Assembly: GCA_029938715.1 (NCBI GenBank) | Contig: JAOZUK010000013.1 | Span: 1 to 55,055, forward strand | Reading direction: 5' to 3' | From: Bacteroidales bacterium | GTDB taxonomy: Bacteria; Bacteroidota; Bacteroidia; Bacteroidales; GCA-2748055 | DNA: 55,055 nucleotides | Part shown: positions 2,905-46,834 of the stretch, piece after piece | Layout of the letters: the number at the start of each line of letters is the position of its first letter | Numbering within the stretch: position 1 is the stretch's first letter | Program-made: the position numbers and the translations under genes | The notes under the pieces: model-generated | Seen by the model: the letters and a program-made list of their open reading frames with translations, nothing else | What the model was told of the DNA's origin: nothing | The model's database searches: none

Positions 2905-4056
2905 TTAATATTTCCCTGCATCTTTTGCGGCTTCAATCATGGCCTTAACATTTTCGATTGGTGTACCCTTCTCGAGGAAATCAGAGGTCGAGAAGATATA
3001 AAAACCACCAGGTTTCCCGGTTTCCATTATTTCCCTGGTTTTCCCGGCAACCTCATGAGGTGAAGCAGTTTTAAGAAAATGAACCTGGTCCAGGTTGCCT
3101 AAAAGGCACATCGAATCACCAAAATAGCCTTTGGCATCCTGCAAGGTATTATCGCCCACAGGGTGTTCTGAGACTGTTTCCCACAAGGTAAATCCCATCC
3201 GTTTGTAATTGGAATATAGCCCTTTGGCCATTCCGCAATTGTGATAGATTGTATACGCACCATGGGAATGAATCGCGTCAATAATGGGCTTTTCATAGGG
3301 CTCCACATGTGCTGAAAAAAAGTCGGAACCGAATATTGCCCCATTGGCTATATTACCCGCAATCCCAACACATTCTAGCTCAGTAGAAGCCAGATGCGCA
3401 TTATAAATAACCATCTGCCCGGACAGTTTTGACAGCAAAGCATCGTATAGGTCCGGAATTTCATACACATCCATCATCAATGATTCTATACTTCGATACT
3501 GGCTGACCATGTTGTAAACACCGCACCATCCCCAAGGTGCAGCTATTCCATCTTCCCCCAGGGCTTTGCGCCATTGGGATGTAATTGTGTTCATTTCGGT
3601 TATGGTTTCCGAATCGATCTCCGGCATGAACTCGATGAATGCCTCAATATCCTCCTGATCCTTCAGAAAGTACTCCTGGGTTGAGAGATGCACCCCCGCA
3701 GAGGCGACTCCGGCATCGGGCCCAACCAGCACCTGGGTAAGTGTTTTTTTCGGAGTTTCGATGGTCGTACGAAAATAAATCCTGCCATTATGAACCTGCT
3801 TCTCCCTGCCAAGTTTCCAACTCGGAAAACTCTTACGCAAGAAGTGGGGAATCTCTAAAGTACGCGGCTTTGCGATCAGGTCGAAATCCAGTTCCCTGGC
3901 TAATTCAAGTGCATCATAAACGCGATCTACCTCTGTTTTCTTAGGATAGAAATAAGATAAATACTCATCCTGCACAAATGGGCTTACCGGTACCCGATCT
4001 GGTATCTGACCTGACAATACAAGTTGTAGTCGCTCTCTTGCTGTTAGGATTTTCAT
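2905..4056 (-). CDS. Uroporphyrinogen decarboxylase-superfamily protein (MtaA-like), first of three
   Basis: A 383-residue cytoplasmic TIM-barrel protein of the URO-D superfamily. The opening (LTARERLQLVLSGQIPDRVPV) is the common start of this group. Late in the protein, TIYHNCGMAKG carries the His-x-Cys pair seen in zinc-dependent MtaA/MtbA corrinoid methyltransferases, and CLLGNLDQ follows. True HemE needs an N-terminal arginine-rich loop that is not evident here, so haem synthesis is unlikely. No corrinoid-binding protein is in the window. The start at 4056 is chosen because a degraded upstream gene stops one base before it (TAA-A-ATG). The role is unknown; demethylation of a methylated sugar or sugar acid would fit the superfamily and context but is inference. 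Confidence 0.8.
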   Translation of the reverse strand: MKILTARERLQLVLSGQIPDRVPVSPFVQDEYLSYFYPKKTEVDRVYDALELARELDFDLIAKPRTLEIPHFLRKSFPSWKLGREKQVHNGRIYFRTTIETPKKTLTQVLVGPDAGVASAGVHLSTQEYFLKDQEDIEAFIEFMPEIDSETITEMNTITSQWRKALGEDGIAAPWGWCGVYNMVSQYRSIESLMMDVYEIPDLYDALLSKLSGQMVIYNAHLASTELECVGIAGNIANGAIFGSDFFSAHVEPYEKPIIDAIHSHGAYTIYHNCGMAKGLYSNYKRMGFTLWETVSEHPVGDNTLQDAKGYFGDSMCLLGNLDQVHFLKTASPHEVAGKTREIMETGKPGGFYIFSTSDFLEKGTPIENVKAMIEAAKDAGKY

Positions 4057-4057
4057 T

Positions 4058-4234
4058 TTAGTTGTGCTGTTTATCGAATTCGTCAAGCCAGTCACGCTGC
4101 ATTTGCAAATCATCCTTAAACTCTTTCAAACCTACATCTTTCCAGTGCGAGCCCATCAAATCGTTGCCATGCAGATAAGTTCCTGAAGTAAATTCAGCCA
4201 GTTCTTCATATATGAAAACTACACTATTATTCCG
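4058..4234 (-). pseudogene. Orphan 3' end of a lost gene
   Basis: An open stretch of 58 codons without a start codon, ending one base before the ATG of the URO-D-like gene. The decoded tail contains YEELAEFTSGTYLHGNDL and DLQMQRDWLDEF, which looks like real protein (charged amphipathic helices, no stops). The tight spacing to the next gene is the usual operon arrangement. Immediately upstream, at about 4219-4420, another frame is open and encodes QCGDCEDGIYTLALQKAQRK before a stop. This may be the earlier part of the same protein separated by a frameshift, or an unrelated open stretch. I do not recognise the family. The rest of 4235-4433 shows no complete gene but holds repeat elements (see 4356-4401). 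Confidence 0.45.
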
Positions 4235-4401: not shown

Positions 4402-4433
4402 TAGTTCAGGAAAGAAGATTGGTTAACAATATG

Positions 4434-4997
4434 CTAATTCCTTTTAAGCATTAGCTCACGAAGCTGGCTTTCTTGATCGGGTGACCAGTATTTACAATCG
4501 AGCTGAATAAAAACCGAAGAATAAGGAATGGTCTCATTGGTCTTCAATACCAGGGTTTTAAAAAGTTTGGATGCCGCATCGATTTTTACAAATACCGAAT
4601 CGTGCAATAACTCCTGAATATCTGAGTTTCCTATGATTCCGGTTAATGATTTTCGATAATCATCAATTTCAGGAACCAGTTTCCGGTTTATAAAATCCAG
4701 CTCCTTGTCTACGAAAATAATAGGTTTGATATGGCTTGCACTTCCTACCTGATCCAGTGTGTATTGCAAAACACCAAGCAAATCATCTCCGGTATCAATA
4801 GTTATAACTCCCTCTGAATTTTGTAACGGGAAGGCTTTATCAACCACCAAAATCCAATTTCGATGACCTAACAGGGGAATTTCTTTATTGAGCTGTTGTT
4901 TCCAGTCTGACTGAGTATCCGGTTCTTTTTCTTTTTGAATGCATGATGCTAGCAAAATAAAGGAACCTGTCACCAGTAATAAATTTATCCTTTTCAT
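4434..4997 (-). CDS. RbsD/FucU-like sugar mutarotase, lipoprotein
   Basis: A 187-residue predicted lipoprotein: MKRINLLLVTGSFILLASC, with the lipid-accepting Cys at residue 19. The mature part matches the layout of RbsD/FucU pyranose-furanose mutarotases: LLGHRNWILVVDKAFP with the catalytic-type histidine at residue 45 (compare LGH-D-P in RbsD), and near the C terminus IPYSSVFIQLDCKYW, matching the PYANIIL strand of RbsD. Family members interconvert anomers or ring forms of ribose and fucose and normally act in the cytoplasm as ring-shaped oligomers. Here the protein would sit in the periplasm or on the outer membrane, like the exported rhamnose mutarotase at 43501-43899. The family call rests on motifs I aligned by eye. 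Confidence 0.65.
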   Translation of the reverse strand: MKRINLLLVTGSFILLASCIQKEKEPDTQSDWKQQLNKEIPLLGHRNWILVVDKAFPLQNSEGVITIDTGDDLLGVLQYTLDQVGSASHIKPIIFVDKELDFINRKLVPEIDDYRKSLTGIIGNSDIQELLHDSVFVKIDAASKLFKTLVLKTNETIPYSSVFIQLDCKYWSPDQESQLRELMLKRN

Positions 4998-9602: not shown

Positions 9603-10385
9603 ATGGAAAACAAAAGTTTTGATCTATCAGGAAAACAGGCAATCGTTACCGGGGGAGGAAGCGGTATTGGCAAAGCCATAGCAATTGCCCTGGCTGGCCA
9701 GGGGGCAGAAGTGTGCATTCTGGATTTGAATATTGAAAATGGCCAGCATGTTGCAGATACTATTGTAGCTTCTGGTGGAAAGGCTGTTTGCATCGCTTGT
9801 GATGTGTCGGATTTTGAAAGTGTAAATGGTGCCTTCCATACAGCGACTGAAGGTAAACGTTTGGATATACTGGTCAATAATGCAGGAATTGCCCATATTG
9901 GAAGTGTTGGTAATACATCGCCCGATGATTTTGATACCATCTATGGCGTAAATGTGAAAGGGGTTTTTCATTGTCTTAAAGCGGGTGTGGAGAGGATGAA
10001 ATCAAGTGGTGGAGCAATCATTAATATATCTTCCATTGCTGCACATGTAGGATTGTCCGACCGGTTTGCTTATTCCATGAGCAAAGGGGCCGTACATAGC
10101 ATGACCCTATCGGTGGCCAAAGACTATCTTTCGGATAAGATAAGGTGTAACTCTATCGCCCCGGGAAGAGTTCATACCCCGTTCGTAGATGGGTTTTTAG
10201 CTAACAACTACCCTGGGAAAGAGGAGGAGATGTTTGAGGCATTATCCAAAACCCAACCCATCGGAAGGATGGGAAAACCAGAAGAAATTGGGTCATTGGC
10301 GCTCTACCTCTGCTCTGATGAGGCCTCTTTCATAACAGGTAGCTGCATCTCTATTGATGGGGGATTTATTACCTTGAATACCTAG
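9603..10385 (+). CDS. SDR dehydrogenase, probable 2-keto-3-deoxy-L-rhamnonate/fuconate 4-dehydrogenase
   Basis: A 260-residue cytoplasmic short-chain dehydrogenase with all marks of the classical group: the nucleotide loop TGGGSGIGKA, NNAGIA, the active-site serine in NISSIAA and the YSMSK catalytic pair, ending in the usual GGF motif. The next gene encodes a fumarylacetoacetate-hydrolase-family protein. That pairing is known from the non-phosphorylative L-rhamnose and L-fucose routes, where the SDR oxidises the 2-keto-3-deoxy acid at C4 with NAD and the hydrolase splits the 2,4-diketo product to pyruvate and L-lactate. The nearby L-rhamnonate dehydratase makes rhamnonate the likely substrate. 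Substrate is inferred from context; the SDR family is certain. Confidence 0.8.
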   Translation: MENKSFDLSGKQAIVTGGGSGIGKAIAIALAGQGAEVCILDLNIENGQHVADTIVASGGKAVCIACDVSDFESVNGAFHTATEGKRLDILVNNAGIAHIGSVGNTSPDDFDTIYGVNVKGVFHCLKAGVERMKSSGGAIINISSIAAHVGLSDRFAYSMSKGAVHSMTLSVAKDYLSDKIRCNSIAPGRVHTPFVDGFLANNYPGKEEEMFEALSKTQPIGRMGKPEEIGSLALYLCSDEASFITGSCISIDGGFITLNT

Positions 10386-10403
10386 AAATAAAATATTGGC
10401 GAT

Positions 10404-11255
10404 ATGAAATTAATCAGATTCGGTACACCCGGAAATGAAAAACCAGGCCTGGAAGTGAAAGGTATCCGTTATGATGTAAGTCACCTGGTGGAAGATTACA
10501 CGGAAGATTTCTTCGCAAATGATGGAATAAATAAGCTAAAAAAGGAATTTGATCCGAAAACATCAGCCCTTGTTGGTCCTGGAATTAGATTGGGAGTACC
10601 CGTAAAAAAACCCGGCAAGATTATTTGTATCGGTCTGAATTATCTCAATCATGCAAAAGAGAGCGGAATGGGCATACCCCGGGAGCCGGTGGTGTTTTTT
10701 AAGGCTACCTCGTCACTTACCGGACCGAATGATCATATTATCATGCCAAAGAACAGCAAGAAAACAGACTGGGAAGTAGAGTTGGCAGTGGTGATAGGCA
10801 AGCGGGCAAATTATATAAACAAAGAAGAGGCCCTGGATTTCGTTGCCGGATATGTATTGCACAATGATGTAAGTGAGCGGGAGTTTCAACTGGAGAAAGG
10901 CGGGCAATGGGTGAAAGGGAAAAGTTGCGATACATTCGCTCCTATTGGACCCTACCTGGTTACAAGGGATGAAATTGCAGATCCAAATAGTCTGAGATTG
11001 TGGTTGTCTCTGAATGGCAAAAGGGTACAGGATGGAAATACAAACGATTTTATTTTTAATGTCCAGGAAGTCATCTCCTACCTCTCTCAGTTTATGAGCC
11101 TGATGCCAGGGGATATAATTTCTACAGGAACACCAGAGGGAGTAGGGCTTGGATTTGATCCTCCTGTCTACCTGAAGGACGGAGATGAAATCGAATTGGG
11201 AATTGATGGTCTTGGGACCGCAAAACAAATTGTCAAAGCCTGGAGCAATGAATAA
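10404..11255 (+). CDS. FAH-family hydrolase, probable 2,4-diketo-3-deoxy-L-rhamnonate/fuconate hydrolase
   Basis: A 283-residue member of the fumarylacetoacetate hydrolase family. Metal-binding acidic residues are visible in DWEVELAVVIGKRA and HNDVSERE, and the product-side loop STGTPEGVGLG is conserved. Start KLIRFGTPGNEKPGLE and the KIICIGLNYLNHAKE block are typical of the sugar-acid branch often annotated as ureidoglycolate lyase. Following the SDR by 18 bases, it is expected to cleave the 2,4-diketo-3-deoxy acid into pyruvate and L-lactate in the cytoplasm. The 3' end overlaps the start of the transporter gene by eight bases, implying translational coupling. Confidence 0.85.
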   Translation: MKLIRFGTPGNEKPGLEVKGIRYDVSHLVEDYTEDFFANDGINKLKKEFDPKTSALVGPGIRLGVPVKKPGKIICIGLNYLNHAKESGMGIPREPVVFFKATSSLTGPNDHIIMPKNSKKTDWEVELAVVIGKRANYINKEEALDFVAGYVLHNDVSEREFQLEKGGQWVKGKSCDTFAPIGPYLVTRDEIADPNSLRLWLSLNGKRVQDGNTNDFIFNVQEVISYLSQFMSLMPGDIISTGTPEGVGLGFDPPVYLKDGDEIELGIDGLGTAKQIVKAWSNE

Positions 11256-12522
11256 TCCAGAAAAAAAATCCATTCCAAAGAGAATATGGTATATGATGCT
11301 TGCTGTGGGACCGGGTATCTTCGCCATTGGTTATACCATAGGGACAGGCAGTGTCACCTCCATGGCAAAAGCGGGCAGTGAATTCGGGACGCAGCTAATG
11401 TGGGTGCTTGCCCTGAGTGTTCTCTTCTCGTGGGTCATGATGGAAGCCTACGGCCGTTATGCAGTGGTGACGGGAGGAACAGGCATGCACAGCATCAGGG
11501 GCAAGATCAAATACGGTGGTGCCCTGGCGATTGCCATAATTGCAGGCTGTGTGATGGCCCAATGGACCTGTCTGTCAGGGATCATTGGACTCACCTCCAA
11601 TGCCATCTATGAATTGATCCACATTTTTTTCCCGGGAACCTCTCCAACCAATTACTGGGCTGTATTGGGCATCGCCATTTTTATGACGATTATACTGTAT
11701 GGAATTCTGCTATTGGGTGACTATTCATTATTTGAAAAAATCCTCGTAATATTTGTGACAATCATGGGTGTATCCTTCATTATCTCCATGTTTATTGTAC
11801 TCCCGGCACCAGGTGAGATACTCAGGGGATTTGTTCCCTCCATTCCCCAGGTGCCTGGTGGAAAGCTCATGGTTGCCGCATTTGTAGGCACCACCATGGC
11901 AGCTCCGGTGTTTGTTACCAGGCCCTTATTTATTAAAGGGAAGGGATGGGGAAAAGAGAACACAAAGGAACAATCCAGAGATGCTATCGTTGCAGCAATC
12001 CTGATGTTTGTGGTCAGCGGATCGATTATAGTAGTTGCCACCGGTGCCCTTTTTCACGAGGGGAAGGCGATCAACAAGGTACTCGACATGGTTTATACCC
12101 TGGAGCCTGTTGCAGGTAAATTTGCGGTTGCCATTTTTATGGTAGGTACACTTAGTGCGGGGATATCCTCCATCTTTCCCATACTGATGGTTGCCCCTCT
12201 GTTAATAGCCGATTATCGCAAAGGTGAGCTTGATACCAAATCCACCCAATTCAAGGTTATCACCGGTATAGCAGCTCTGATCGGTCTGACTGTCCCCATA
12301 CTCGGTTCAAATCCAATTATTGCTCAAATAACCACCCAGGTTTCCGGTGTATTCGTACTCCCACTGGCCATTGTGGGCATAGCCATCCTGGTCAACCGAA
12401 AAGAGATGGGCAGACATCGGGCAGGCATCGCTTTGAACAGTGGTATGATAGCTGCCTTTCTGTTTGCCTGTTTTATGGTTTATACAGGGATTAATGCATT
12501 GATTGATTTGTTTGGAAATTAA
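11248..12522 (+). CDS. Nramp-like transporter lacking the canonical metal-site residues
   Basis: A 424-residue integral membrane protein with about eleven hydrophobic segments and the Nramp/APC-fold opening GPGIFAIGYTIGTGSV. True Nramp manganese/iron carriers have DPGN in the first helix and MPH in the sixth. Here the first site reads TIGTGSV and the second TTMAAPVFV, so the Asp, Asn and Met that bind the metal ion are all replaced. Fold is Nramp-like but divalent metal transport is doubtful. Sitting between the diketo-acid hydrolase and a 2-keto-3-deoxy acid aldolase gene, it more likely moves a sugar acid, a small carboxylate or the sugar. The ATG at 11248 is chosen because it overlaps the preceding stop by eight bases; an upstream in-frame start would lie deep in the hydrolase gene. 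Confidence 0.75.
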   Translation: MNNPEKKSIPKRIWYMMLAVGPGIFAIGYTIGTGSVTSMAKAGSEFGTQLMWVLALSVLFSWVMMEAYGRYAVVTGGTGMHSIRGKIKYGGALAIAIIAGCVMAQWTCLSGIIGLTSNAIYELIHIFFPGTSPTNYWAVLGIAIFMTIILYGILLLGDYSLFEKILVIFVTIMGVSFIISMFIVLPAPGEILRGFVPSIPQVPGGKLMVAAFVGTTMAAPVFVTRPLFIKGKGWGKENTKEQSRDAIVAAILMFVVSGSIIVVATGALFHEGKAINKVLDMVYTLEPVAGKFAVAIFMVGTLSAGISSIFPILMVAPLLIADYRKGELDTKSTQFKVITGIAALIGLTVPILGSNPIIAQITTQVSGVFVLPLAIVGIAILVNRKEMGRHRAGIALNSGMIAAFLFACFMVYTGINALIDLFGN

Positions 12523-12529
12523 AATAGAA

Positions 12530-13294
12530 ATGAAGATGATTCAAGAATTCAAAAAGAGATTACGCGATGGTGAAACGGTATTCGGACCATTTATGAAAAC
12601 TTCCGATGCTGCCTTTGTGGAAATTGCCGGTCATGCAGGATTTGATTTTGTGATCCTGGATATGGAACATGCCCCCTTTACTTATTCAAATCTACAGAAC
12701 CTGGTCATGGCTGCTGAATTATCCGGGACCCTGCCCATTATCCGGGCTCAGAATTCCAGTGATATTTTTATTTCAAAGGCCCTGGATTTAGGTGCATTGG
12801 GCGTTCAGATCCCCCATATTACAAATGCAGATGAGGCAAAAGCATGTATTTCTGCTGCAAAATTTCACCCTGAAGGGCAGAGAGGAATGGACCCTTTCGT
12901 AAGGGCCGCCTCCTACTCATCCATTCCGGCTGCTAAATATTTTTCCCAGGCCAATGAAGCCCTGATTATTATACAACTGGAGGGCAAGGAGGCCATAGAT
13001 AATCTGGAGGAGATCTTGAATGTGGATGGTATTGACATTCTCTTCATCGGACCCTATGACCTTTCTCAGTCCATGGGTGTACCGGGACAGGTGGATCATC
13101 CCATCGTTGTTAAGCATATGGAATCAATCGTAAACCGGGCGAGGGAACGAGGAATTGTGGTCGGCACTTTTACCGATACCCTTGAATCAGCCCGGATGTG
13201 GAGAGATGCCGGAATCCAGTATATCTCCCACGCCGTGGATGTGGCCATATTCACCAATGCATGCAAGGACCTTTTAAAGCAATTACACCTCTAA
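12530..13294 (+). CDS. HpcH/HpaI-family aldolase, probable 2-keto-3-deoxy-L-rhamnonate aldolase (RhmA-like)
   Basis: A 254-residue class II aldolase of the HpcH/HpaI family. Recognisable blocks are VILDMEHAPF (base histidine), IIRAQ (arginine), GALGVQIPHI, IIQLEGKEAI (metal Glu) and LFIGPYDLSQSMG (metal Asp). The family includes RhmA (YfaU), which splits 2-keto-3-deoxy-L-rhamnonate to pyruvate and L-lactaldehyde using Mg or Ni/Co. The L-rhamnonate dehydratase gene lies just downstream on the other strand, which supports that substrate. It follows the transporter by seven bases. Its 3' end overlaps the convergent dehydratase gene by 12 bases. Other 2-keto-3-deoxy acids cannot be ruled out. Confidence 0.8.
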   Translation: MKMIQEFKKRLRDGETVFGPFMKTSDAAFVEIAGHAGFDFVILDMEHAPFTYSNLQNLVMAAELSGTLPIIRAQNSSDIFISKALDLGALGVQIPHITNADEAKACISAAKFHPEGQRGMDPFVRAASYSSIPAAKYFSQANEALIIIQLEGKEAIDNLEEILNVDGIDILFIGPYDLSQSMGVPGQVDHPIVVKHMESIVNRARERGIVVGTFTDTLESARMWRDAGIQYISHAVDVAIFTNACKDLLKQLHL

Positions 13295-21100: not shown

Positions 21101-21290
21101 TAAAGTACCAGTATACACCCGGACGGGCCGAATTGGGAGGATCCAAAAACAAGTTTGTCAGATCCTGGTAGTCCACCTCCAAAGTGGAGACAGTTTTGGG
21201 GCCATCTTGATCAACCCTCTGGCAATTAAGGGTTACTAATAAGATGGAAGTGATTAGTAATAATTTCAGTAAATGTCTTTTCGGGTTCAT
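18150..21290 (-). CDS. GH106-family alpha-L-rhamnosidase, lipoprotein
   Basis: A 1046-residue exported enzyme with a lipobox at LLVTLNC (about residue 23). The N-terminal TIM-barrel region has GH106 blocks: PGVYWYFMDGNLSREEM, TADLESMKEVGIGHVLFLE, KECERLGIVLTLGSGPGWTGSGG, HMDSWEMGAQNWTDDF and AAEAFTSH. The C terminus is a GH2-like jelly-roll (FLDLGEVNNMARIKLNGKDLGIVWTTPWQVDI). GH106 enzymes are inverting, calcium-dependent exo-rhamnosidases. It is the intact counterpart of the remnant at 606-1584. It is transcribed divergently from the AraC regulator, and a TACTTTTG box in the shared region faces it. Confidence 0.88.
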   Translation of the reverse strand: MNPKRHLLKLLLITSILLVTLNCQRVDQDGPKTVSTLEVDYQDLTNLFLDPPNSARPGVYWYFMDGNLSREEMTADLESMKEVGIGHVLFLEVNVGVPQGPVKFLSEEWQESFTHAVKECERLGIVLTLGSGPGWTGSGGPWVKMEESMQHLVASELEVAGPVSLNRKLEVPKGRNPFFGLGGFTPELRKRWEDYYQEVAVLAFPSTDNKGTIADSDEKALYYRPPFSSQKGVKQYIPEPVVSAENFSGNAHGIPTGDVIDISKYMQEDGTLSWEVPEGKWTILRFGRRNNGAITRPAPIPGLGFECDKMSSEAMKHHLETFMIPLIEKIQPDSTKAGGWKMIHMDSWEMGAQNWTDDFRRKFEELKGYDPLPYLPVYTGMIVGNVEESERFLWDLRMVSQELILKNHVEYFKSFGRKYGMGLSIEPYDMNPNTDLDLGSYADVPMCEFWNKGFGFSTGFSTFEGTSIANLYGRSVVAAEAFTSHLVAWKSYPGSIKNQTDWAFCSGINRLVFHTFAHKSIGEQFRPGMTMGPYGVHWDRGQTWWEMSGAYHTYLARSQAMLQQGKGVADVLYLIPEGAPHVFLPPASAVDGNQYLAGHIEFGFDAETDQIIATESEDAKEFMPDRKGYNFDGCSPRILMERARVKDNKIVFDGGASYHLLVLPKVRSMTPELISKIESLVKQGATIIGNPVDRSPGLANFPACDQEVKTISKKLWSGFEIPQKESEIIYGKGTILWGGAYSNPDGEELYPNYQSTASYLKSNGIQPDFNSDGTVRYIHRKMSNRDLYFVSNRTGKQISVDCEFRVKGRYPELWNPLNGEIRALPEYTETDGIISIPLQFEAYEGYIIVFDEKNRIGTEQGNQNFYPKSKVATLEGTWDVAFDSKWGGPEKVRFDQLEDWITRPEEGIKYYSGKASYSKTFDCEQAGKAERLFLDLGEVNNMARIKLNGKDLGIVWTTPWQVDITNAVKEKNNSLEIEVVNLWANRLIGDEAYEDDGIVEEKWPDWVLKNEARPSQRFTFTSFKHYTKDSPLLSSGLLGPVTIYKQ

Positions 21291-26877: not shown

Positions 26878-26895
26878 CAGCTAATCATTTACCAT

Positions 26896-36653: not shown

Positions 36654-37973
36654 TCATTTTAAACTATTCTTCAAAAAACTTTCTATGATATAGAAAGGCA
36701 GAGAAACTAATGGATTTCCTGCTTTAAAAGGTGCTTGCGAAATTTTAACAGCCTTTTTACTCTGGTATTTTTCCAGGAAAAGATGAAGGCTTTTCATACG
36801 TCCTACCGAACCTGATTTGACTTCTACAGGGACAATTTGAGCTTTCAACTCCAATAAATAATCTATTTCAGCTGTGCTGTTTTTCGCTTTGCGGCCCCAG
36901 TAATACAGGGCCGGTTTAGTAAAAGGATCATGATATGCAATAAGTTCCTGCCCTACAAATTGTTCAGCTACAGCTCCTTTAAATATAGCTGTAAATTCTT
37001 TTTCTTTAACAGTTTCCGCATATATCCCACTTATAGCATGAAGCAGTCCAACATCCAGAAACAAGACTTTATAATAAATTTCATTCGCACTTGCAGCTAA
37101 TGGGATACCTGCTCCGCTTGCCTGCCTTACTCTGGTAACAATGCCGGCCGTTTCCAGTAATTCTAAGGCTTCTTTCAGGTCTCTCGATTTGACAGTTCTA
37201 TCCACCTGTGCATAGACGAATTTTTGTCCTACCATACCGGGGACTGCACTAAAAGTTTTCTTGAGGTACTGATGTTTTGACTTTCGGGCGTATTTTGCAA
37301 AATCATCAACATATGTATCAAGAATTGAACGTTGTATTCTTTGACAGTTTATTATGTCGTGTGTTGTTATGTACTCCTGTACCACTGCTGGCATGCCACC
37401 CGTTATAAAATACTTACGGATATATTCATTGAGCTTTGTGTGGAGGTTGTTTGGAAGGCTTTTTAATCTTGAAAAATCAGACAGGTAGGCACGTAGTTCC
37501 GATTCGCCTAAAGCAATCAGGAATTCACTAAAAGATAGAGGGAACAGATATAAATATTGAATTCGACCAACAGGTACCTTGAAGTTCTCTGACCTTAGCG
37601 CAAACTCAAGCAGTGAGCCTGCCGCTATGATATGGGTAGAAGGCATCTCTTCAAAAAAGTACCGCAATGACATGATTGCCTTCGGGCATTCCTGAATTTC
37701 ATCAAGAAACAGTAGGGTTTTTCCAGGCTCTATTCTTTCACCTTTGTATAAAGATATTTTTTCAAGAATGTCAACAGGATCATATGTATTGAAGATATCT
37801 TTATACTCAGGGTTCCTTTCAAAGTTAAGAGTGACAAGCTTGTTAAACTCCTTTTCTCCGAACTCATTTATTGTGAATGATTTCCCGGTTTGCCTTGCTC
37901 CCCTTATCAATAAAGGACGACGATTCTTTTGATTTTTCCATTCACACAATTGTCTATATATGTCCCGTTTCAT
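36654..37973 (-). CDS. AAA-family ATPase with DUF4143 C-terminal domain
   Basis: A 439-residue cytoplasmic protein. The N-terminal AAA domain has Walker A GARQTGKS (residues 25-32) and Walker B TLLFLDEIQE (about 85-94). The C-terminal DUF4143 part has an EIDYLLELKAQIVPVEVKSG block resembling the restriction-endonuclease fold (acidic residue, then E-x-K). Proteins of this family occur in many copies in Bacteroidota and archaea, often as mobile or addiction-like genes, with no firm function. It is unrelated to carbohydrate use, faces against both neighbours, and looks richer in A/T by eye than the flanking genes. This suggests later insertion between the glycosidase run and the rhaI operon. It ends eight bases from the convergent T9SS gene. 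Confidence 0.85.
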   Translation of the reverse strand: MKRDIYRQLCEWKNQKNRRPLLIRGARQTGKSFTINEFGEKEFNKLVTLNFERNPEYKDIFNTYDPVDILEKISLYKGERIEPGKTLLFLDEIQECPKAIMSLRYFFEEMPSTHIIAAGSLLEFALRSENFKVPVGRIQYLYLFPLSFSEFLIALGESELRAYLSDFSRLKSLPNNLHTKLNEYIRKYFITGGMPAVVQEYITTHDIINCQRIQRSILDTYVDDFAKYARKSKHQYLKKTFSAVPGMVGQKFVYAQVDRTVKSRDLKEALELLETAGIVTRVRQASGAGIPLAASANEIYYKVLFLDVGLLHAISGIYAETVKEKEFTAIFKGAVAEQFVGQELIAYHDPFTKPALYYWGRKAKNSTAEIDYLLELKAQIVPVEVKSGSVGRMKSLHLFLEKYQSKKAVKISQAPFKAGNPLVSLPFYIIESFLKNSLK

Positions 37974-38268: not shown

Positions 38269-39498
38269 ATGACTATGAACAATCAGAAAAACCAAGACCA
38301 GCTGGCTGAACAGCTCGAAAGGAAAGGGCTTAACCTTGCAGCTATAAAAGAGAGCCTGAAAAACCAGGTAATTGAACTTCCTTCGTGGGCAGTTGGAAAT
38401 TCAGGGACCCGTTACGGTACATTTCGTGACCCGGGTGCTGCGCAAACCATTTGGGACAAGATCGATGACTGTGCTGAGATCCAGCGATGGGTTGGTATTT
38501 GTCCCAAAATGGCCTCCCATGTACTTTGGGATGTAACAGATGATGGCAAGTATACTCCGGTGAAAGAGTATGCAGAAAGCAAGGGCATGTCCATAGGTAC
38601 GGTACACCCTAATACCTTTATGGGTCAGCAATTTCGTTTTGGAAGCGTGTGTAACCCGTTTGAAGATGTACGCAACAGCACCCTGGAGCATTTCAGGGAT
38701 TGTGTCCGCATCACCCGGGAAATGGGCTCAAAGTCAATAGGTATCTGGCTGGCCGATGGTACCAACTATCCCGGTCAGGACAACCTGTTTGAAAGAAAAC
38801 ACCGGTTGGAAGAGGGACTGGCGGACCTGTATGGGGCCATGGACCCTGACATGACACTGTTTGTTGAATATAAGCCTTTTGAACCTGCTTTCTACACCAC
38901 TGATATAATGGATTGGGGTATGTCGCTCCTGCTCTGTAATAAGCTGGGTGACCGGGCAAAGGTTCTTGTGGACCTGGGGCACCACTTGCCAGGGGTGAAT
39001 ATCGAACAGATTATTGCCATTCTGCTGGATGAAAAGAAACTGGGAGGCTTCCATCTGAATAATTGCAAATATGCGGACGACGACCTGATGGTGGGATCCA
39101 TCAATCCCCTGGAACTGTTCCTGATCTATGCCCAGCTCACAGAGAAAGAGGCCCATGGCAATAGCGATGAAATCACCTATATGCTTGATCAATCGCACAA
39201 TATCGAACCCAGCATCGAGGGTATAATACAGTCTGTGATGAATACCCAGACTGCCTTTGCCAAAGCATTGATAATCGATCGCAAGGCACTGGCTGCGGAA
39301 CAGCAGGAGGGCGATGTAATGATGGCCAACCGGATACTTATGGATGCCTATGAGACGGATGTAAGGCCCCTGCTGGCCCAGGTAAGGGCCGAAATGGGTC
39401 TGGAGCCTGATCCGCTGCTGGCCTACCGACGGGGTGGATATGCCGAAAAGATTGTAAAAAAGCGAAAAGGAACAGGTACTAATACATTAGGAGGATAA
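38269..39498 (+). CDS. rhaI: L-rhamnose isomerase, Pseudomonas stutzeri type
   Basis: A 409-residue cytoplasmic TIM-barrel isomerase converting L-rhamnose to L-rhamnulose. Metal and catalytic residues fall at the spacing of the P. stutzeri enzyme: Glu200 (FVEYKPF), Asp235 and His238 (VLVDLGHH), His262 (GGFHLNN) and Asp residues in KYADDDL, against E219, D254, H257, H281 and D289/D291 in that enzyme (both gaps 35 and 27 match). This subtype is sequence-distinct from E. coli RhaA and accepts a wide range of aldoses. The C-terminal Gly-Gly codons form a strong AGGAGG at 39489-39494, just before the next start, unusual in a phylum that rarely uses Shine-Dalgarno pairing. Confidence 0.92.
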   Translation: MTMNNQKNQDQLAEQLERKGLNLAAIKESLKNQVIELPSWAVGNSGTRYGTFRDPGAAQTIWDKIDDCAEIQRWVGICPKMASHVLWDVTDDGKYTPVKEYAESKGMSIGTVHPNTFMGQQFRFGSVCNPFEDVRNSTLEHFRDCVRITREMGSKSIGIWLADGTNYPGQDNLFERKHRLEEGLADLYGAMDPDMTLFVEYKPFEPAFYTTDIMDWGMSLLLCNKLGDRAKVLVDLGHHLPGVNIEQIIAILLDEKKLGGFHLNNCKYADDDLMVGSINPLELFLIYAQLTEKEAHGNSDEITYMLDQSHNIEPSIEGIIQSVMNTQTAFAKALIIDRKALAAEQQEGDVMMANRILMDAYETDVRPLLAQVRAEMGLEPDPLLAYRRGGYAEKIVKKRKGTGTNTLGG

Positions 39499-39499: not shown

Positions 39500-40552
39500 A
39501 TGATGACAGGAAGAGAACGCATGATCGCAGCATTACGGAGAGAAAAACCAGACCGGCTGCCCACACTTGAATGGATCATAAGCCCTAAGGTGATCAGGGC
39601 CATGACCGGTCAGGATTCAGAGATTGAATTTATACGCCAGATGGGTCTGGATGCCATCGCCATCGGCACCAATATGAAGAAGGAAAAGGTGGATGACCGC
39701 CATTTCAAGGACGAATGGGACATCACCAGGGTATCTTATGATGACTACCCCAATGCGGTAGGCCATCCCGTACAGGATGAAGCTGACCTGAAAAAGATTA
39801 AGATGCCCGATCCCGATGCGGACTATCGTTTCGACGATATTCGTGCTGCCATGGATGAGCTGCAGGGAGAGAAAGCAGTGGTGATTCGTCTGAGAGATGT
39901 CTTTTCGCAGCCCCGGGACCTGATGGGGTTTGAAAATTTCCTGATGGGTTTTTACACCCAGCCTGACCTGGTCTCACGAATCATGGAGATGAGCGTGGAC
40001 TACAACAGTCGTCTGGCAGAGAATGTAAAGTCACTGGGGGGTGAGATTATTGTGGTAGGGGATGATATTGCCGATTCCAGTAGCCTCCTGCTTAGTCCCG
40101 AGCTCTACAGGGATATGGTAAAGCCCCATTTCAACAAGCTGATTCGCAAGTTTAAGGATCTGGGTCTCTATGTAATTAAGCATACCGACGGGAACATTAT
40201 GGATGTGATCGAAGATCTTGTGGATTCGGGTATCGATTGTCTCGATCCCATTGATCCGCTGGCTGGTATGGATATCAAAGCCATCAAAGAGAAGTATGGA
40301 TCAAAGGTCTGCCTCAAAGGAAATGTGGATTGCGTAAAGACACTAGTAGATAAGAGTCCCGAAGATGTTATTGCCGAAACCAAACAGTGCATTCTGGATG
40401 CCTCAGTGGGCGGAGGCCATATCATCTCCTCCAGCAATTCAATTCATGCAGGGATCAATCCTGTGAATTACAGGATATTCCTGGAGGCAGTGGAGGAGTT
40501 TGGCTATTATCCGCTTGATATGAATAAATTGAAATCAGAAGTCAATGGATAA
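39500..40552 (+). CDS. Uroporphyrinogen decarboxylase-superfamily protein, second of three
   Basis: A 350-residue URO-D-like TIM-barrel protein located exactly between rhaI and rhaB, one base after the first and overlapping the second by eight bases. The opening TGRERMIAALRREKPDRLPT and the late blocks VIKHTDGNIMDVIEDL, CLDPIDPLAGMD and CLKGNVDC are family features. Where the first paralogue has a zinc-type HNC, this one has HTDG, so the zinc-thiolate site of MtaA is not complete. Haem synthesis is improbable in this setting. In many rhamnose operons this place would be taken by the aldolase RhaD, which is not in the window, but nothing shows that the protein replaces it. Function unknown. 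Confidence 0.8.
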   Translation: MMTGRERMIAALRREKPDRLPTLEWIISPKVIRAMTGQDSEIEFIRQMGLDAIAIGTNMKKEKVDDRHFKDEWDITRVSYDDYPNAVGHPVQDEADLKKIKMPDPDADYRFDDIRAAMDELQGEKAVVIRLRDVFSQPRDLMGFENFLMGFYTQPDLVSRIMEMSVDYNSRLAENVKSLGGEIIVVGDDIADSSSLLLSPELYRDMVKPHFNKLIRKFKDLGLYVIKHTDGNIMDVIEDLVDSGIDCLDPIDPLAGMDIKAIKEKYGSKVCLKGNVDCVKTLVDKSPEDVIAETKQCILDASVGGGHIISSSNSIHAGINPVNYRIFLEAVEEFGYYPLDMNKLKSEVNG

Positions 40553-42032
40553 AAGAAGGTACGTAGCCTTTGACCTGGGGGCGGAAAGCGGGAGGGCTGT
40601 CATAGGCTCTTTTGATAAAGGTCTGCTGAACTGCAAAGAGGTCTATCGATTCCCCAATAAGAGTACTGCCATGGGAGGCCAACTTTACTGGAATATGATT
40701 GGAATTTATGATCATCTGCTGGAAGGTCTTAAAACATGTACTAAACTTGTGGGTCAGGGGATAAACGGAATCGGGGTGGACAGCTGGGGCGTTGATTATT
40801 GCCTCATTGATGCACAGGGTAACATGGCAGGCAATGCCTTTAATTACCGTGACCCCCGCACCACAGGTACCCCGGAAATTATTGAAAATACGCTTGGTAG
40901 TGAACAGTTGTATGAAAAAACCGGTGTTCAGATGTTGCCTTTCAATACCCTGAACCAGCTGATTGCTGCAGTAAGGGCGGAGGACCCTACACTGGAAATA
41001 GCGGATCGCTTACTGTTTATTGCCGACTTTTTTCATTACTGTTTTACCGGGAAGAAGGTGGCAGAGTTTACTGCCGTGAGCATCTCGCAACTATACAACA
41101 ATGGAACAGGACAATGGGATGATGCCATCTTTAATGCATTTGGCATTCGCCGGAAGATTGCCCCCGAAGTGGTGCAGGCAGGTACGGTTATAGGAGACCT
41201 TAAGCCGGAGATAGCCCGCCTGGTTGGACTGGACAGGACGAAGGTGATTGCCCCTGCTGTACACGATACCGCCAGCGCAGCGGTATGTATCCCCACCATA
41301 GAGGTAGGTGGCTGGGCATTCCTGAGTTCCGGGACATGGTCCATTGTGGGCCTTGAACTGGATGCACCCATCATGGATGAGAAGAGTATGGCCATGAACA
41401 TATCCAATTCAGGCGGGGTATTGGGGAAAACACTCTATCTGAAAAATGTGATGGGGCTATGGATACTTCAGCAATGCAAAAGGATATGGAACAAGAAATC
41501 TCCGGTTCTCGATTATTCCGATATCGTGAACCGGGCTTTTAAAGCAACACCTTTTTCAGCCTTAATCGATCCGGATGACCTTCGCTTTCTCAATGCAGAG
41601 GATATGGTTGCAGAGGTGATCAGCTTTTGTAAAAAGAGTGGACAGAAGGTGCCCGAATATGACGATATCGGTACCATCAGCCGGATTATCTTCGAGAGCC
41701 TGGCCCTGAAGTACCGGTTTGTACTGGAACAGTTGATGGAAGGTGCCGGAAAGGAGGTGGAAACCATCTATCTCATCGGGGGAGGCGGTAAGAATGAGTT
41801 GCTGACCCAATTCACGGCCAATGCTACCGGGCGCAAAGTAATCACTGGTCCGTCGGAAGCATCATCGGTGGGTAATATCATGATGCAGGCTGTGGGCGAT
41901 GGCATGATCAGCTCATTGGGAGAGGTCCGGACGATTATCATGAACTCTTTCGGAGTCAGAGAGTACACTCCGCACTACCCCAAAGAGTGGCAGACCATAT
42001 ATGATCGCTTTATATCGCTTATTTATAAATAA
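40545..42032 (+). CDS. rhaB: L-rhamnulokinase
   Basis: A 495-residue FGGY-family sugar kinase that phosphorylates L-rhamnulose at O1 with ATP. Visible features: the phosphate loop VAFDLGAESGRAVIG, substrate-side GIGVDSWGVDYCLID and NYRDPRTTGTPE, the FLSSGTWSIVGLE adenosine region and IGGGGKNELLTQFTANATGR near the C terminus. The EFTAVSISQLYN segment is typical of rhamnulokinases rather than xylulose kinases. Length fits RhaB (about 480-490). It is translationally coupled to the URO-D-like gene before it. The stop, TAA, touches the sulfatase reading frame that follows. Confidence 0.9.
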   Translation: MDKRRYVAFDLGAESGRAVIGSFDKGLLNCKEVYRFPNKSTAMGGQLYWNMIGIYDHLLEGLKTCTKLVGQGINGIGVDSWGVDYCLIDAQGNMAGNAFNYRDPRTTGTPEIIENTLGSEQLYEKTGVQMLPFNTLNQLIAAVRAEDPTLEIADRLLFIADFFHYCFTGKKVAEFTAVSISQLYNNGTGQWDDAIFNAFGIRRKIAPEVVQAGTVIGDLKPEIARLVGLDRTKVIAPAVHDTASAAVCIPTIEVGGWAFLSSGTWSIVGLELDAPIMDEKSMAMNISNSGGVLGKTLYLKNVMGLWILQQCKRIWNKKSPVLDYSDIVNRAFKATPFSALIDPDDLRFLNAEDMVAEVISFCKKSGQKVPEYDDIGTISRIIFESLALKYRFVLEQLMEGAGKEVETIYLIGGGGKNELLTQFTANATGRKVITGPSEASSVGNIMMQAVGDGMISSLGEVRTIIMNSFGVREYTPHYPKEWQTIYDRFISLIYK

Positions 42033-43500: not shown

Positions 43501-43899
43501 TCAATCCAGGTGATAGACCTCCTCCATAGGGGCCCACCAGACACCAGTCCCTGCTGATTCCACGGGTTCCTGGCAGGGATCTGTAAGTTTCCACCAGGCC
43601 TGGGTGAGGGAATCCTCAGCCATCTTTTTCATGTCTTGTTCAAAGTCATCTCCGGTATATTCAAAGTAGCTAAAGAGATGCCCGTCACGATAATAGATGG
43701 AGTAATTTCTTATGTTGCATTGCTTTAGCTTTATATTTATTCCGGGCCAGGGATCGGCATGCAGCGCTTTATACTCATCCAGTTTTTCAGGCTTCACTCT
43801 GATGACCGAGCCATATCTGACGATTTCCTCCTTCTCCTGAAAACAGGACTGAAGGAGGATGATCATCATACCTATAATCCAATACCTTGGTTTCAACAT
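43501..43899 (-). CDS. rhaM: L-rhamnose mutarotase, exported lipoprotein
   Basis: A 132-residue RhaM-family protein that interconverts alpha and beta anomers of L-rhamnose. The mature part has YGSVIRVKPEKLDEYKALHADPWPG, with Tyr43 and His47 at the same four-residue spacing as the catalytic Y18 and H22 of E. coli RhaM, then NIRNYSIYYRDGHLFSYFEY and the WWKLTDP tail. A signal peptide with lipobox LLQSC (Cys19) precedes it, while known RhaM is cytoplasmic. It is thus expected to act outside the inner membrane, ahead of the symporter gene lying 18 bases upstream. The gene converges with the sulfatase gene, 14 bases apart. Confidence 0.85.
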   Translation of the reverse strand: MLKPRYWIIGMMIILLQSCFQEKEEIVRYGSVIRVKPEKLDEYKALHADPWPGINIKLKQCNIRNYSIYYRDGHLFSYFEYTGDDFEQDMKKMAEDSLTQAWWKLTDPCQEPVESAGTGVWWAPMEEVYHLD

Positions 43900-43917: not shown

Positions 43918-45540
43918 TCAACCGAAATAGATATACAGCAGCACCATGATTATAAGGAGTACCAGAGCCCAGATCCTGGTGTCTTTGATGCTGCGGATCC
44001 TGGATCTGTATCCCTTGAGATGCTCCTTGGTGAAGATAAGATTTTCTATTTCAGCCAATGGCCTGGGTCTGGATGTCAGACTCAGCACATTGAATAAAAC
44101 AACACACATCACAAACAACCACCAGGCCTGCATCAGGAAGGGGATTCCCAGTCCATCCGTAATAAACTTTGCACCCGAAATGGGTTCAAAATCGAAACAA
44201 AATACAATGCTTCCTGCCAGGAGCCCGAATATCAGCGTTGACAGGGCCACCCTGTCATTCCCCTTTTTGGATAGGATCCCCATGACAAATACAGCTGCAA
44301 CTGGCGGGGAGAGCATGGACAGCACAACGGATATGGCATCGAAGATGCTTTCAAACCGGCCGATCCAGGGGGACCAGGAGATTGCCAATATAATGACAAC
44401 CAGGCTGGCGATTCGCCCGGCCCTCAACACATTCTTATCTGGTGTGTCTGGTCGTATTCTTTTGACAATATCGATAGAGACGAGTGTTCCCACACTGTTC
44501 AATGCTGCTGATATGGTACTCATCAGGGCAGCAAGCAGGGCAGCTGTCATCAATCCCACCAATCCTTTGGGCAGCACATTGGAGATCAGCACCATCAGTG
44601 TGTCATTGGGATCGGTAATGATATCCCGGAAAAGGACATAGGCCAGGATACCCGGGAATACCATGATAAATACGGGCAGGATCTTCAGAAATCCGGCAAA
44701 AATCGGTCCGTTCTGGGCATCTGATAGCCTTTTTGCCCCCAGCACCTTCTGTACGATGGTCTGATCGGCACACCAGTAATAGATCCCTAGTACAGGGTAA
44801 CCGAGCAGGATGGCATACCATGGAAGTATGGAATCTTTTCCAGACTGAAGCATGTCAAGTTGACCGGGTTTCAGGGCTGCTTTCAAATCAGCCATAGTAT
44901 GGATCCCCTGATCTGGAAGCATGGCGATGGCCAGCACAGTTAGCAGGGTGGCCCCGCCAATGAGTATGACGGACTGAAATGATTCAATCACTACGATGGC
45001 CCGCAATCCACCCAGGATGCTATAGAGGGTTGTAATGAAAGCGATCACCAGGATCGATACCATCACATCTACCCCAAAGATGACCTTCATCACCACAGCA
45101 CCGGCATAAAGACTGATCCCTATGTGGGAGAAAAGTGCTGTGATCACCACAATGAAGGCAAAGAAGGACCTGGAATTGGGGCCAAAGCGTTTCTCCAGGA
45201 ACTCAGGCAGGGTGGATATCCGGTTCTTAAAGTAGAAGGGAGCAAAAAACAGCGCGAGGATGATCAACAGAAAGGTGGCCATCCACTCAAAATTGCCCCA
45301 GACGATTCCATCCTTGAATCCATTGGCTGCCAGACCCACCATATGGATGGTGGAAATATTGGCTGCAAAAAGTGCCGCCCCGATCATCCCCCAGTTCAGG
45401 GACCGGCCAGCCAGAAAGAATCCCTCACTGCTGATACTCTTTCTCCTGGCCGATAGTATACCGATCAGAATAATGATCAGCAGGTAGGCCAGGATAATCC
45501 CTGCATCAATAATTGAAATATTTTCTCTAACGGGTCCCAT
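43918..45540 (-). CDS. Sodium:solute symporter (SGLT-like), probable rhamnose uptake
   Basis: A 540-residue inner-membrane protein with about fourteen transmembrane segments of the SSS family. Blocks: SEGFFLAGRSLNWGMIGAALFAANISTIHMVG, YSILGGLRAIVVIE, GYPVLGIYYWCADQTIVQKVLGAKRL and AALLAALMSTISAALNSVGTLVSIDIVKR. The YYWCADQ-VQKVLGAK segment is characteristic of the SGLT/sugar branch. Co-transcription with the rhamnose mutarotase suggests rhamnose or a related sugar taken up with sodium, but the substrate is inferred. Its first 14 bases overlap the end of the third URO-D-like gene, and the mutarotase follows 18 bases later. Confidence 0.85.
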   Translation of the reverse strand: MGPVRENISIIDAGIILAYLLIIILIGILSARRKSISSEGFFLAGRSLNWGMIGAALFAANISTIHMVGLAANGFKDGIVWGNFEWMATFLLIILALFFAPFYFKNRISTLPEFLEKRFGPNSRSFFAFIVVITALFSHIGISLYAGAVVMKVIFGVDVMVSILVIAFITTLYSILGGLRAIVVIESFQSVILIGGATLLTVLAIAMLPDQGIHTMADLKAALKPGQLDMLQSGKDSILPWYAILLGYPVLGIYYWCADQTIVQKVLGAKRLSDAQNGPIFAGFLKILPVFIMVFPGILAYVLFRDIITDPNDTLMVLISNVLPKGLVGLMTAALLAALMSTISAALNSVGTLVSIDIVKRIRPDTPDKNVLRAGRIASLVVIILAISWSPWIGRFESIFDAISVVLSMLSPPVAAVFVMGILSKKGNDRVALSTLIFGLLAGSIVFCFDFEPISGAKFITDGLGIPFLMQAWWLFVMCVVLFNVLSLTSRPRPLAEIENLIFTKEHLKGYRSRIRSIKDTRIWALVLLIIMVLLYIYFG

Positions 45541-46834
45541 TTTGCATCACCTCTTCCATGCAAATTTGCTGCCAGTCCCAGAGCCGGCGGGGATCATACC
45601 TAACGGTCGAAATATCTTTCATAATCATCTCAATGTGGCACCTTCTATCGGCTTGTTCCAGGAAATCCCTGATCTCATGCCTGGCACGGTTTGAATCAAA
45701 TTCCTTATCAGCAAAAATAGCAGGATTTGGTTTACGGCTGATCACATAATCGTCGCCCAGCCCTTCAATAGCCTTCCTGGTATCATTCCAGGGACTGCAA
45801 GAGACCTTTCTGAGGTTTGGGATCCTTTGCAGCAGGTGGCTTTTGTCTGCCATTGGTTCGCAGCATCCATAGTATGTAAGGCTCCACCGTTCCAACCATT
45901 TCAGGTCATGTTCTATGGCAAATTCCCAGTGCATTTCAGGAGAGACTTCAGAAAATATCTGGGCATTGGAACATCCCCACATATTGTGTGGTTTGATCCA
46001 TTCAGGATCAAAGGGTTTTCCCGGCATCTCCACAGTATGGCCATATCCCCCTGATCCGATCCGGGTGTTGTTGCAATCCAGGGAGAGCAGGTTCTGCTCC
46101 TCGAACTGGTCCAGTTCGACCATCCAGGCTTCAACCATTCTTTCGTAGAAGGCATGTACCATATCGGGACGCAGGATCAGGTCCATCATGGCTTCCTGGA
46201 TTCCCCACCAGCGGATCAGGAAATCCCATGGGGTGAACCAGATATGGGATTGGCCCTGCTTTTTTACCGGCAGCACAGGGCTGAATATATCATTCATCAG
46301 CTGGAACTTGATTTCTGTGGCTTCCCTGTTATGGGTAATGGTGGGGATCTTTAGCTTCTCCAGGTCATCCATATCCTGAATCTGGATATTGAAATGGCGG
46401 GAGACGATGTCGCTGGATTCATCAGTGATGGCCAGGTCCACATCCTCAATGATACCAAAATCAGTACTGTGAATGGAAAGAGGACAATCGAGCCAGGGAT
46501 TGATAATCATATCTCCGGGCATGTGTTTCCACTGGTAGATGGTCTTGCGCATAAGATCTTCCTGGGAGCGGGCCCACTCATTCTCACATCGAATGGTCAG
46601 TTCATCATTGTAATTTATTTCATGCCATGGAATCTCATCGATCCAGATCATGGGCCGTTCCGATTCAAGGTCATTAAGCTTTTGCCACAAACGTGCCTTC
46701 TCCTTGTGGATGGGTAGAGATGCAATGCGGGCCCACTCTTCCGCCAGTGCCCTTAAGACATCGATCTCCCTCTGTTCAAGTAAGATCTCTTCGGCTACCT
46801 CTGGTGCAGTCCTGTGGCTGGGGTCATGTAACAT
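45527..46834 (-). CDS. Uroporphyrinogen decarboxylase-superfamily protein, third of three
   Basis: A 435-residue cytoplasmic protein of the broad URO-D/cobalamin-independent MetE-like barrel group, more distant than the other two. It starts with an extra helical region (TAPEVAEEILLEQREIDVLRALAEEWARI) and has WIDEIPWHEINYNDEL, FTPWDFLIRWWGIQEAMMDLILRPDMVHAFYERM and, late, LTYYGCCEPMADKSHLLQRIPNLRKVSCSPWND, in which two cysteine positions could bind zinc as in methyltransferases. It is translationally coupled to the symporter, so it probably acts on the imported compound or its derivative. Methyl transfer from an O-methyl sugar is one possibility; the sequence does not settle this. Confidence 0.7.
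   Translation of the reverse strand: MLHDPSHRTAPEVAEEILLEQREIDVLRALAEEWARIASLPIHKEKARLWQKLNDLESERPMIWIDEIPWHEINYNDELTIRCENEWARSQEDLMRKTIYQWKHMPGDMIINPWLDCPLSIHSTDFGIIEDVDLAITDESSDIVSRHFNIQIQDMDDLEKLKIPTITHNREATEIKFQLMNDIFSPVLPVKKQGQSHIWFTPWDFLIRWWGIQEAMMDLILRPDMVHAFYERMVEAWMVELDQFEEQNLLSLDCNNTRIGSGGYGHTVEMPGKPFDPEWIKPHNMWGCSNAQIFSEVSPEMHWEFAIEHDLKWLERWSLTYYGCCEPMADKSHLLQRIPNLRKVSCSPWNDTRKAIEGLGDDYVISRKPNPAIFADKEFDSNRARHEIRDFLEQADRRCHIEMIMKDISTVRYDPRRLWDWQQICMEEVMQNGTR

Follow-up and report, generated by a model that had tools for sequence, protein, structure and literature searches.

URO-D superfamily proteins in a Bacteroidales rhamnose locus as candidate methyltransferases of a corrinoid-dependent sugar O-demethylation system

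Introduction

The UroD-superfamily O-demethylases MtvB, OdmB, VdmB and MtoB and the chloromethane enzyme CdmB work with a corrinoid protein, an activase and a methyl-tetrahydrofolate (methyl-THF) methyltransferase, and their substrates are methoxylated aromatics or haloalkanes (PMC13222342, available excerpt). Three genes for proteins of the same superfamily, designated UROD1, UROD2 and UROD3, are present in a 55,055-nucleotide contig of a Bacteroidales bacterium (C242; JAOZUK010000013.1 of assembly GCA_029938715.1, which has 6.2 Mb, 945 contigs, 97% completeness and 4.3% contamination), the whole of which is called the window here. Like partners are encoded in the same genome, but the window genes are located in glycan loci, apart from a single shared hub on another contig, C869. 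Genomic context makes it probable that the window URO-D proteins are corrinoid methyltransferases. With confidence only slightly better than even, we infer that UROD1, UROD2 and UROD3 are the methyltransferase-I, or ether-cleaving, parts of a corrinoid O-demethylation system acting on O-methylated 6-deoxy sugars.

In type 1 mlp clusters, a single corrinoid protein and a single Ram/RACE activase accompany several proteins of the UroD superfamily, an arrangement that the L172-L174 regions of relatives of the window's genome resemble by eye. These clusters have been proposed to serve methyl-sulfur or methyl-selenium metabolism and, unlike the C869 hub, have no folate methylase; in the main text of that paper, the words sugar, rhamnose and polysaccharide are not found (PMC10418091). 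The methylcobalamin:coenzyme M methyltransferases MtaA and MtbA represent the nearest solved sequence, and one such structure is the lowest-E fold for UROD2, but UROD1 and UROD2 are far under the family cut-offs and miss the complete H-x-C...C zinc set. Demethylation of sugars by a P450 enzyme requires O2. A P450 acting on 6-O-methyl-D-galactose in marine Bacteroidetes likewise demethylates algal sugars and so enables their use, but this route is oxidative, produces formaldehyde and involves proteins unrelated to URO-Ds (PMC8360166, available excerpt). Reported sources of O-methylated sugars, 2- and 3-O-methyl rhamnose among them, are bacterial polymers as well as charophyte algae, mosses and ferns (PMC7612518 and PMC11320575, available excerpts).

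Corrinoid methyltransferase systems are already known, whereas the open-licence literature searched yielded none that is linked to sugars and shares a hub. Among the matches listed there, judged by titles and the starts of abstracts, no account that connects URO-D enzymes to loci for rhamnose or glycans was recognised, several texts containing both 'corrinoid' and 'polysaccharide utilization loci' having been judged no further.

The three URO-D genes and their products

The sequence-only reading had described three URO-D-like genes, each overlapping or closely adjoining a transport or rhamnose gene. The open reading frame (ORF) coordinates bear out both the genes and their packing. UROD2 (39500-40552, plus strand, 350 residues) and UROD3 (45527-46834, minus strand, 435 residues) keep their limits, whereas UROD1, previously ended at 4056, extends to an upstream ATG and occupies 2905-4113 on the minus strand (402 residues). 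UROD2 begins after a 1-nucleotide gap behind the gene for an L-rhamnose isomerase of the Gram-positive type, RhaI (38269-39498, plus strand; TIGR02635, E-value 4.3e-156), and overlaps by 8 nucleotides the gene for the rhamnulokinase RhaB (40545-42032, plus strand; TIGR02627, 1.2e-128). The RhaI score of 519.6 bits is slightly under the cut-off of 531 and the RhaB score of 429.5 bits is under that of 528, and these are still the best NCBIfam names for the two proteins. UROD3 overlaps by 14 nucleotides a sodium:solute symporter gene (43918-45540, minus strand; PF00474, 3.2e-66), after which the gene for the L-rhamnose mutarotase RhaM (43501-43899, minus strand; PF05336, 1.3e-30) comes next. UROD1 is upstream of an MFS transporter gene at a distance of 43 nucleotides (1581-2861, minus strand; PF07690, 3.3e-63), and a gene for an RbsD/FucU-like protein (4434-4997, minus strand; PF05025, 1.2e-5) is located upstream of UROD1. 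Same-strand MFS and URO-D neighbours occur three times in the genome, in the window and on contigs C746 and C91, and the MFS proteins are 46-47% identical. UROD1 and UROD2 show about 25% identity over some 200 residues and, as judged from their sequences, are not recent duplicates. RhaM and the RbsD/FucU-like protein both start with lipoprotein-like signal sequences, as judged by eye, and may therefore act outside the cytoplasm.

UROD1 and UROD2 are over the gathering score of PF01208 (3.4e-23 and 1.2e-35, respectively), which is the only Pfam family matched by UROD2 at E<=0.001. UROD3 has neither a Pfam nor an NCBIfam match at this threshold and no credible sequence match in the PDB, and a profile of 10 UROD3 sequences aligns with a profile of 12 UROD2 sequences with an hhalign probability of 97.3% (E-value 2.5e-11). 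Since the AlphaFold2 model of UROD3, built from a single sequence, reaches a predicted local distance difference test (pLDDT) score of only 34, this divergent protein is assigned to the superfamily by profile comparison.

Cys/His sets like those of zinc methyltransferases had been claimed for two of the proteins, which is correct only in part: UROD1 has H-N-C-G, UROD2 has H-T-D-G in place of H-x-C, and UROD3 has a Y-x-C-C motif whose C-C pair is invariant in 10/10 family members. At the aligned site the MtaA-type set, namely H-x-C and a later Cys, is incomplete in both UROD1 (H-N-C without the later Cys) and UROD2 (H-T-D and Ser). In the UROD2 family alignment, His228 is found in 12/12 sequences and Cys278 likewise does not vary, whereas position 230 carries Asp in 10 sequences and Cys in the other 2. 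Zinc-free members of the superfamily have been described, such as the corrinoid methyltransferase CdmB (PMC13222342, available excerpt). The AlphaFold2 model of UROD2, built from three sequences, has a pLDDT of 81.8 and a predicted template modelling score (pTM) of 0.84, and its lowest-E PDB match in Foldseek is 4ay7, a methylcobalamin:coenzyme M methyltransferase of Methanosarcina.

The uroporphyrinogen decarboxylase HemE is marked by an N-terminal R-Q-A-G-R motif. This motif is absent from 25 URO-D ORFs of the window's genome (UROD1-3 and 22 others, at least two of them partial frames). Against the cut-off of 302.95 bits for the HemE model TIGR01464, UROD1 scores 25.9 and UROD2 33.5 bits, UROD3 gives no match at E<=0.001, and the best URO-D of the genome reaches 232.8 bits; nine of 60 relatives each carry one match above 300 bits, which was taken as HemE. 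The view that none of the three genes is HemE-like therefore stands and extends to the other URO-Ds of the genome, and a HemE function was rejected on the low model scores and the missing motif.

The corrinoid hub

The absence of a corrinoid protein, as noted earlier, is correct for the window, where none was found, but not for the genome. A search of the genome for the B12-binding domain gave four places over the cut-off, one of them in a short stand-alone frame for a 222-residue protein on C869, and a fifth place below the cut-off in a 294-residue frame. The C869 corrinoid protein contains PF02310 and PF02607; immediately after its gene comes that for a RACo-type reductive activase (PF14574 and PF17651), and the opposite strand encodes a methyl-THF:corrinoid methyltransferase (PRK07535) and a formate-THF ligase (PRK13505), both over their cut-offs. 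The partner set of an O-demethylase system, namely the corrinoid protein, the activase and methyltransferase II (MT-II), is thus present in the genome.

Fifteen genomes of the same genus have the corrinoid protein, and all four hub genes are kept in 7/7 of the same-genus regions fetched, with identities of 75-92%, the activase showing 60-65%. A formate channel (PF01226) is added in regions L164 and L165 and a MetF-type reductase with DUF5981 in L164, and ORFs resembling the channel or the reductase are visible by eye in other hub regions of the genus. Together, these genes would convert a methyl group on the corrinoid protein into formate. An engineered Acetobacterium woodii can grow by oxidising methyl groups to formate (PMC10284823, available excerpt).

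Co-occurrence was analysed in 61 genomes, the window's own and 60 relatives, with the corrinoid protein strictly defined by a best E-value of 3.5e-75 or lower and a frame of 310 residues or fewer. It is present in 27/32 genomes with non-HemE URO-Ds and in 0/29 without them (Fisher test, 2e-12); a looser definition, which adds G039, G044 and G030, gives 27/32 versus 3/29 (3.8e-9). The corresponding values are 14/16 versus 0/24 in the 40 genomes that are at least 90% complete, and 6/8 versus 0/26 with one genome per family (2e-5). Outside the genus, a URO-D gene is located no more than two genes from the corrinoid gene in 9 of the 12 regions fetched (L169-L176 and L179, not L177, L178 or L181); one copy was fetched for each of three two-copy genomes, the G019 copy being one already seen beside a URO-D. 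In genomes with UROD2 homologues, from Clostridia and others, a URO-D gene is no more than five genes from the corrinoid gene in 4/12 regions (L089, L204, L208 and L210, genome G520 included). Each of the 12 such genomes tested, out of 31 known, has at least one corrinoid protein, although such proteins may be common in that class. Genome G616 shows the opposite of the one-hub pattern, with 21 corrinoid-protein matches.

In G014, a genome of the same genus, a single frame (7438-8880 of L182), open at the contig end, encodes a URO-D domain with both B12-binding domains after it. The URO-D part shares 48% and 44% identity with the two MFS-paired URO-Ds on C746 and C91 of the window's genome, and 29% and 24% with UROD2 and UROD1, respectively, over shorter stretches; three sulfatase-like genes adjoin the frame. 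CmuA is likewise a URO-D-corrinoid fusion. The G014 fusion ties the glycan-locus URO-Ds of this genus directly to a corrinoid.

Linkage to rhamnose genes

Co-occurrence with rha genes in other genomes had been proposed as a check in the sequence-only reading. The closest relatives of UROD2 and some members of the UROD3 family show such a linkage; more distant relatives do not. All four UROD2 proteins that are at least 56% identical (from the window, from L039 in genome G061, and from G525 and G520) are encoded directly beside rhaI. In G520, one strand carries ABC transporter genes, a URO-D gene, UROD3, rhaI, UROD2, rhaB, a gene for an isomerase-like protein and a corrinoid gene; the isomerase-like protein is 38% identical to the product of 16707-18119 in the window, which itself has only weak isomerase matches. 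G525 has, within about 33 kb, a rhaB-like gene, rhaA, UROD3, a similar ABC transporter, UROD2, rhaI and three more URO-D genes. Among 18 other UROD2-related regions fetched, with 26-48% identity, an FGGY kinase gene is close by in L040 and L091, and rhaM and an L-fucose isomerase gene are present in L096. A fucose-isomerase-like label given by eye to a neighbour in L040 was dropped, since this protein matches nothing in Pfam and BLAST does not align it with the window protein.

UROD2 has strong matches in only one of 395 genomes in a class-wide sample around the window's genome, and that one is the window's own. A match at 1e-40 is found in 30/391 genomes of the class of G061, a member of the Christensenellaceae, and the closest UROD2 relatives found are located in this class; a scan of GTDB contigs returned only two relatives. 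UROD3 matches occur in 61/391 genomes of the same class. One UROD3 region, in G490, also contains GH29 and GH95 fucosidase genes, and another, in G608, brings together genes for a UROD3-like protein, a URO-D, a methyl-THF methyltransferase and a corrinoid protein. In the relatives, the window's genome included, UROD3 precedes a symporter gene in 5/6 places (the window, G007, G011, G014 and G021), and rhaM is found within the fetched stretch in three of them (the window, G007 and G011).

Contig C767 of the same genome carries another rhamnose operon, which encodes RhaM and RhaA over their cut-offs, a RhaT-like transporter and a kinase below theirs, and a tandem aldolase assigned only to class II. 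Since this operon is present, the RhaI-UROD2-RhaB genes constitute an additional rhamnose module, and their distribution fits a module acquired for a modified rhamnose. Tandem class II aldolase domains are joined in single proteins of 429-431 residues, 65% identical to each other, at two rhamnose-related loci of the genome (1462-2757 of L041 and 7815-9104 of L239).

URO-D proteins across the genome

Although three URO-D genes are indeed present in the rhamnose locus, they are not special to it, as the genome has 24 PF01208 matches and a second UROD3-type gene. The latter is located on C191, where its neighbours are two rhamnosidase genes of GH78, one of GH106 and a gene for a class II aldolase. 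Two genes on each side of 20 of the 24 URO-D genes were surveyed, giving 65 neighbouring proteins, and 71 proteins from other contigs served as control. The neighbours include 6 sulfatases, 5 sugar transporters, 4 Gfo/Idh/MocA oxidoreductases, 3 3-keto-disaccharide hydrolases and 2 GH106 rhamnosidases, sulfatases and sugar transporters being the commonest families (best 25 of 84 families), whereas none of these glycan-related families has two members in the control. A tblastn comparison counted 14 genes for sulfatases, glycosidases and transporters in 211 kb around 21 URO-Ds versus 1 in 153 kb of control; individually, only sulfatases are enriched (p 0.035), and glycosidases (p 0.19) and transporters (p 0.34) are not.

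A proposed route and its alternatives

An undescribed URO-D group with sugars as substrates, O-demethylation being one example of its action, had been suggested for the window and is the best-fitting reading, because corrinoid partners are encoded elsewhere in the genome; the support is partial. In the proposed route, glycosidases and sulfatases would free an O-methylated 6-deoxy sugar, which the paired transporter would bring into the cell. A URO-D protein would then pass the methyl group to Co(I) of the single shared corrinoid protein on C869, the cobalt being kept reduced by the RACo-type activase. The pterin-binding methyltransferase would hand the methyl group to tetrahydrofolate, from which a MetF-type reductase and the formate-THF ligase would yield formate, and the demethylated sugar would go into the RhaI-RhaB pathway. 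For the sugar used by each URO-D, we infer a rhamnose or fucose type. As a wider and more tentative proposal, to which we give somewhat less than even confidence, anaerobes of the Bacteroidota-like kind and Clostridia may possess an undescribed sugar-demethylation route in which URO-Ds are singly embedded in glycan loci, each accompanied by a transporter or sugar enzymes of its own, and share one corrinoid-folate-formate hub, several URO-Ds in a rhamnose locus serving different O-methyl positions.

Several observations weigh against sugar O-demethylation by these proteins. UROD2 has H-x-D where zinc methyltransferases show H-x-C and Ser at the later Cys; the window URO-Ds do not reach the NCBIfam cut-offs for MtaA, MtbA and CmuA (best 104 bits versus 244); and HemE structures are nearly equal to 4ay7 in E-value for the UROD2 model, 3cyv having the higher TM-score. 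Non-HemE URO-Ds occur without the corrinoid protein in G005, G021, G027, G043 and G055, and low completeness does not account for this in G021 (92%), which holds the UROD3-symporter pair, or in G055 (100%). The hub and the URO-D genes are unlinked in the window's genus, including its own genome, and 8/12 regions around the corrinoid gene in genomes with UROD2 homologues have no URO-D gene within five genes. As for rhamnose, rhaI is found in 0/18 of the more distant UROD2-related regions fetched, a rhamnose isomerase gene in only 2/11 Clostridia UROD3 regions (G520 and G525), and no close UROD2 relative among the 60 relatives, where the best matches are 32-33% identical. The assembly is also fragmented, with its 945 contigs and 4.3% contamination.

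The URO-Ds may be corrinoid methyltransferases whose methyl donor is not a sugar, such as methoxylated aglycones freed by the rhamnosidases from flavonoid or phenolic rhamnosides, or another methyl compound, with RhaI and RhaB using the sugar. The known O-demethylases of the superfamily, MtvB, OdmB and VdmB, do use methoxylated aromatics (PMC13222342, available excerpt), and the locus has GH106 and GH78-type rhamnosidases and the genome a corrinoid hub; but UROD2 is packed tightly between RhaI and RhaB, the RhaI-UROD2 pair recurs in three other genomes, and sulfatases and sugar transporters are the commonest URO-D neighbours among the best 25 of 84 families; a non-sugar donor appears unlikely. 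A role in methyl-sulfur or methyl-selenium pathways, or as methyl-accepting proteins of the MT-II or SCMT-like kind, with an incidental placement in glycan loci, is less likely again. UroD-superfamily Mlps have been linked with corrinoid and Ram/RACE proteins to such metabolism (Kountz and Balskus, PMC10418091, available excerpt), and the URO-Ds on C156 and C712 have H-I-C-G-N and a later Cys like MtaA. This full motif is missing in UROD1 and UROD2, however, rhamnose genes accompany the closest relatives of UROD2 and several of those of UROD3, and the URO-D neighbours in the window's genome are glycan-enriched.

The slot between isomerase and kinase is usually that of an aldolase, and the RhaI-UROD2-RhaB module has none, so that UROD2 might have taken over, as a non-orthologous replacement, the role of the class II rhamnulose-1-phosphate aldolase or of some related lyase; the loss of the H-x-C zinc motif in UROD2 and a 43% identical homologue in a run with the FGGY kinase gene in L040 are in line with this. 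UROD2 does not match PF00596, the family of that aldolase, and the C767 operon has a class II aldolase of its own, which makes an aldolase role for UROD2 unnecessary. Other class II aldolases are present in the genome and also in G061 and G062, and a replacement would leave UROD1, UROD3 and the URO-D-corrinoid fusion unexplained; we regard it as improbable, slightly more so than a place in methyl-sulfur metabolism. The least probable of the four is that the URO-Ds decarboxylate a sugar acid or act otherwise without a corrinoid, their co-occurrence with the hub reflecting only an anaerobic lifestyle. The superfamily takes its name from a decarboxylase, the window encodes a sugar-acid module and HemE fold matches are strong, but the corrinoid protein is absent from 29/29 (strict) or 26/29 (loose) genomes without non-HemE URO-Ds, and several genomes have URO-D and corrinoid genes side by side, one having them fused. 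The decarboxylation once offered as an alternative to O-demethylation gains no support.

Other features of the window

The glycan-use locus contains GH106, GH78-like, GH28, GH43, GH116 and GH127 glycosidase genes and two sulfatase genes, and the window also encodes the sugar-acid module together with rhaI, rhaB and rhaM. The GH106 alpha-L-rhamnosidase is encoded at 18150-21290 on the minus strand (PF17132, 2.7e-175), and an alpha-L-rhamnosidase-like protein of the GH78 type at 30422-32962 on the plus strand (PF17390, 3.4e-11; PF17389, 9.1e-7). Near the GH28 and rhamnosidase-like genes, two large proteins of 1041 and 676 residues (23752-28926) have no Pfam match at E<=0.001 and are possibly unnamed glycosidases. 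The ORF at 46896-49598 joins, in one frame of 900 residues, a region of the GH127 beta-L-arabinofuranosidase type and a carbon-nitrogen hydrolase domain. The sugar-acid module (9603-14566), assigned by Pfam, comprises an SDR protein, an FAA hydrolase, an Nramp-like transporter and an HpcH aldolase on the plus strand and an enolase-superfamily protein on the minus strand. The transporter gene (11185-12522) belongs to a family of the metal-ion type and is located between those for the FAA hydrolase and the HpcH aldolase; its substrate may be a non-metal compound. An AAA_14/DUF4143 gene (36654-37973), immediately ahead of the rhaI module, has a low third-position G+C of 0.334, compared with a range of 0.445-0.588 for 11 other genes of the window, and a similar gene adjoins the UROD2 homologue in L040.

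Implications

In the literature searched, the P450 monooxygenase is the sole bacterial route of sugar demethylation met (PMC8360166, available excerpt). If sugar O-demethylation by the URO-D proteins is true, anaerobes would possess a corrinoid route for it, with formate as an extra yield, and a large group of genes that are annotated by the URO-D domain in the genomes of glycan degraders would acquire a testable role and a defined set of partners.

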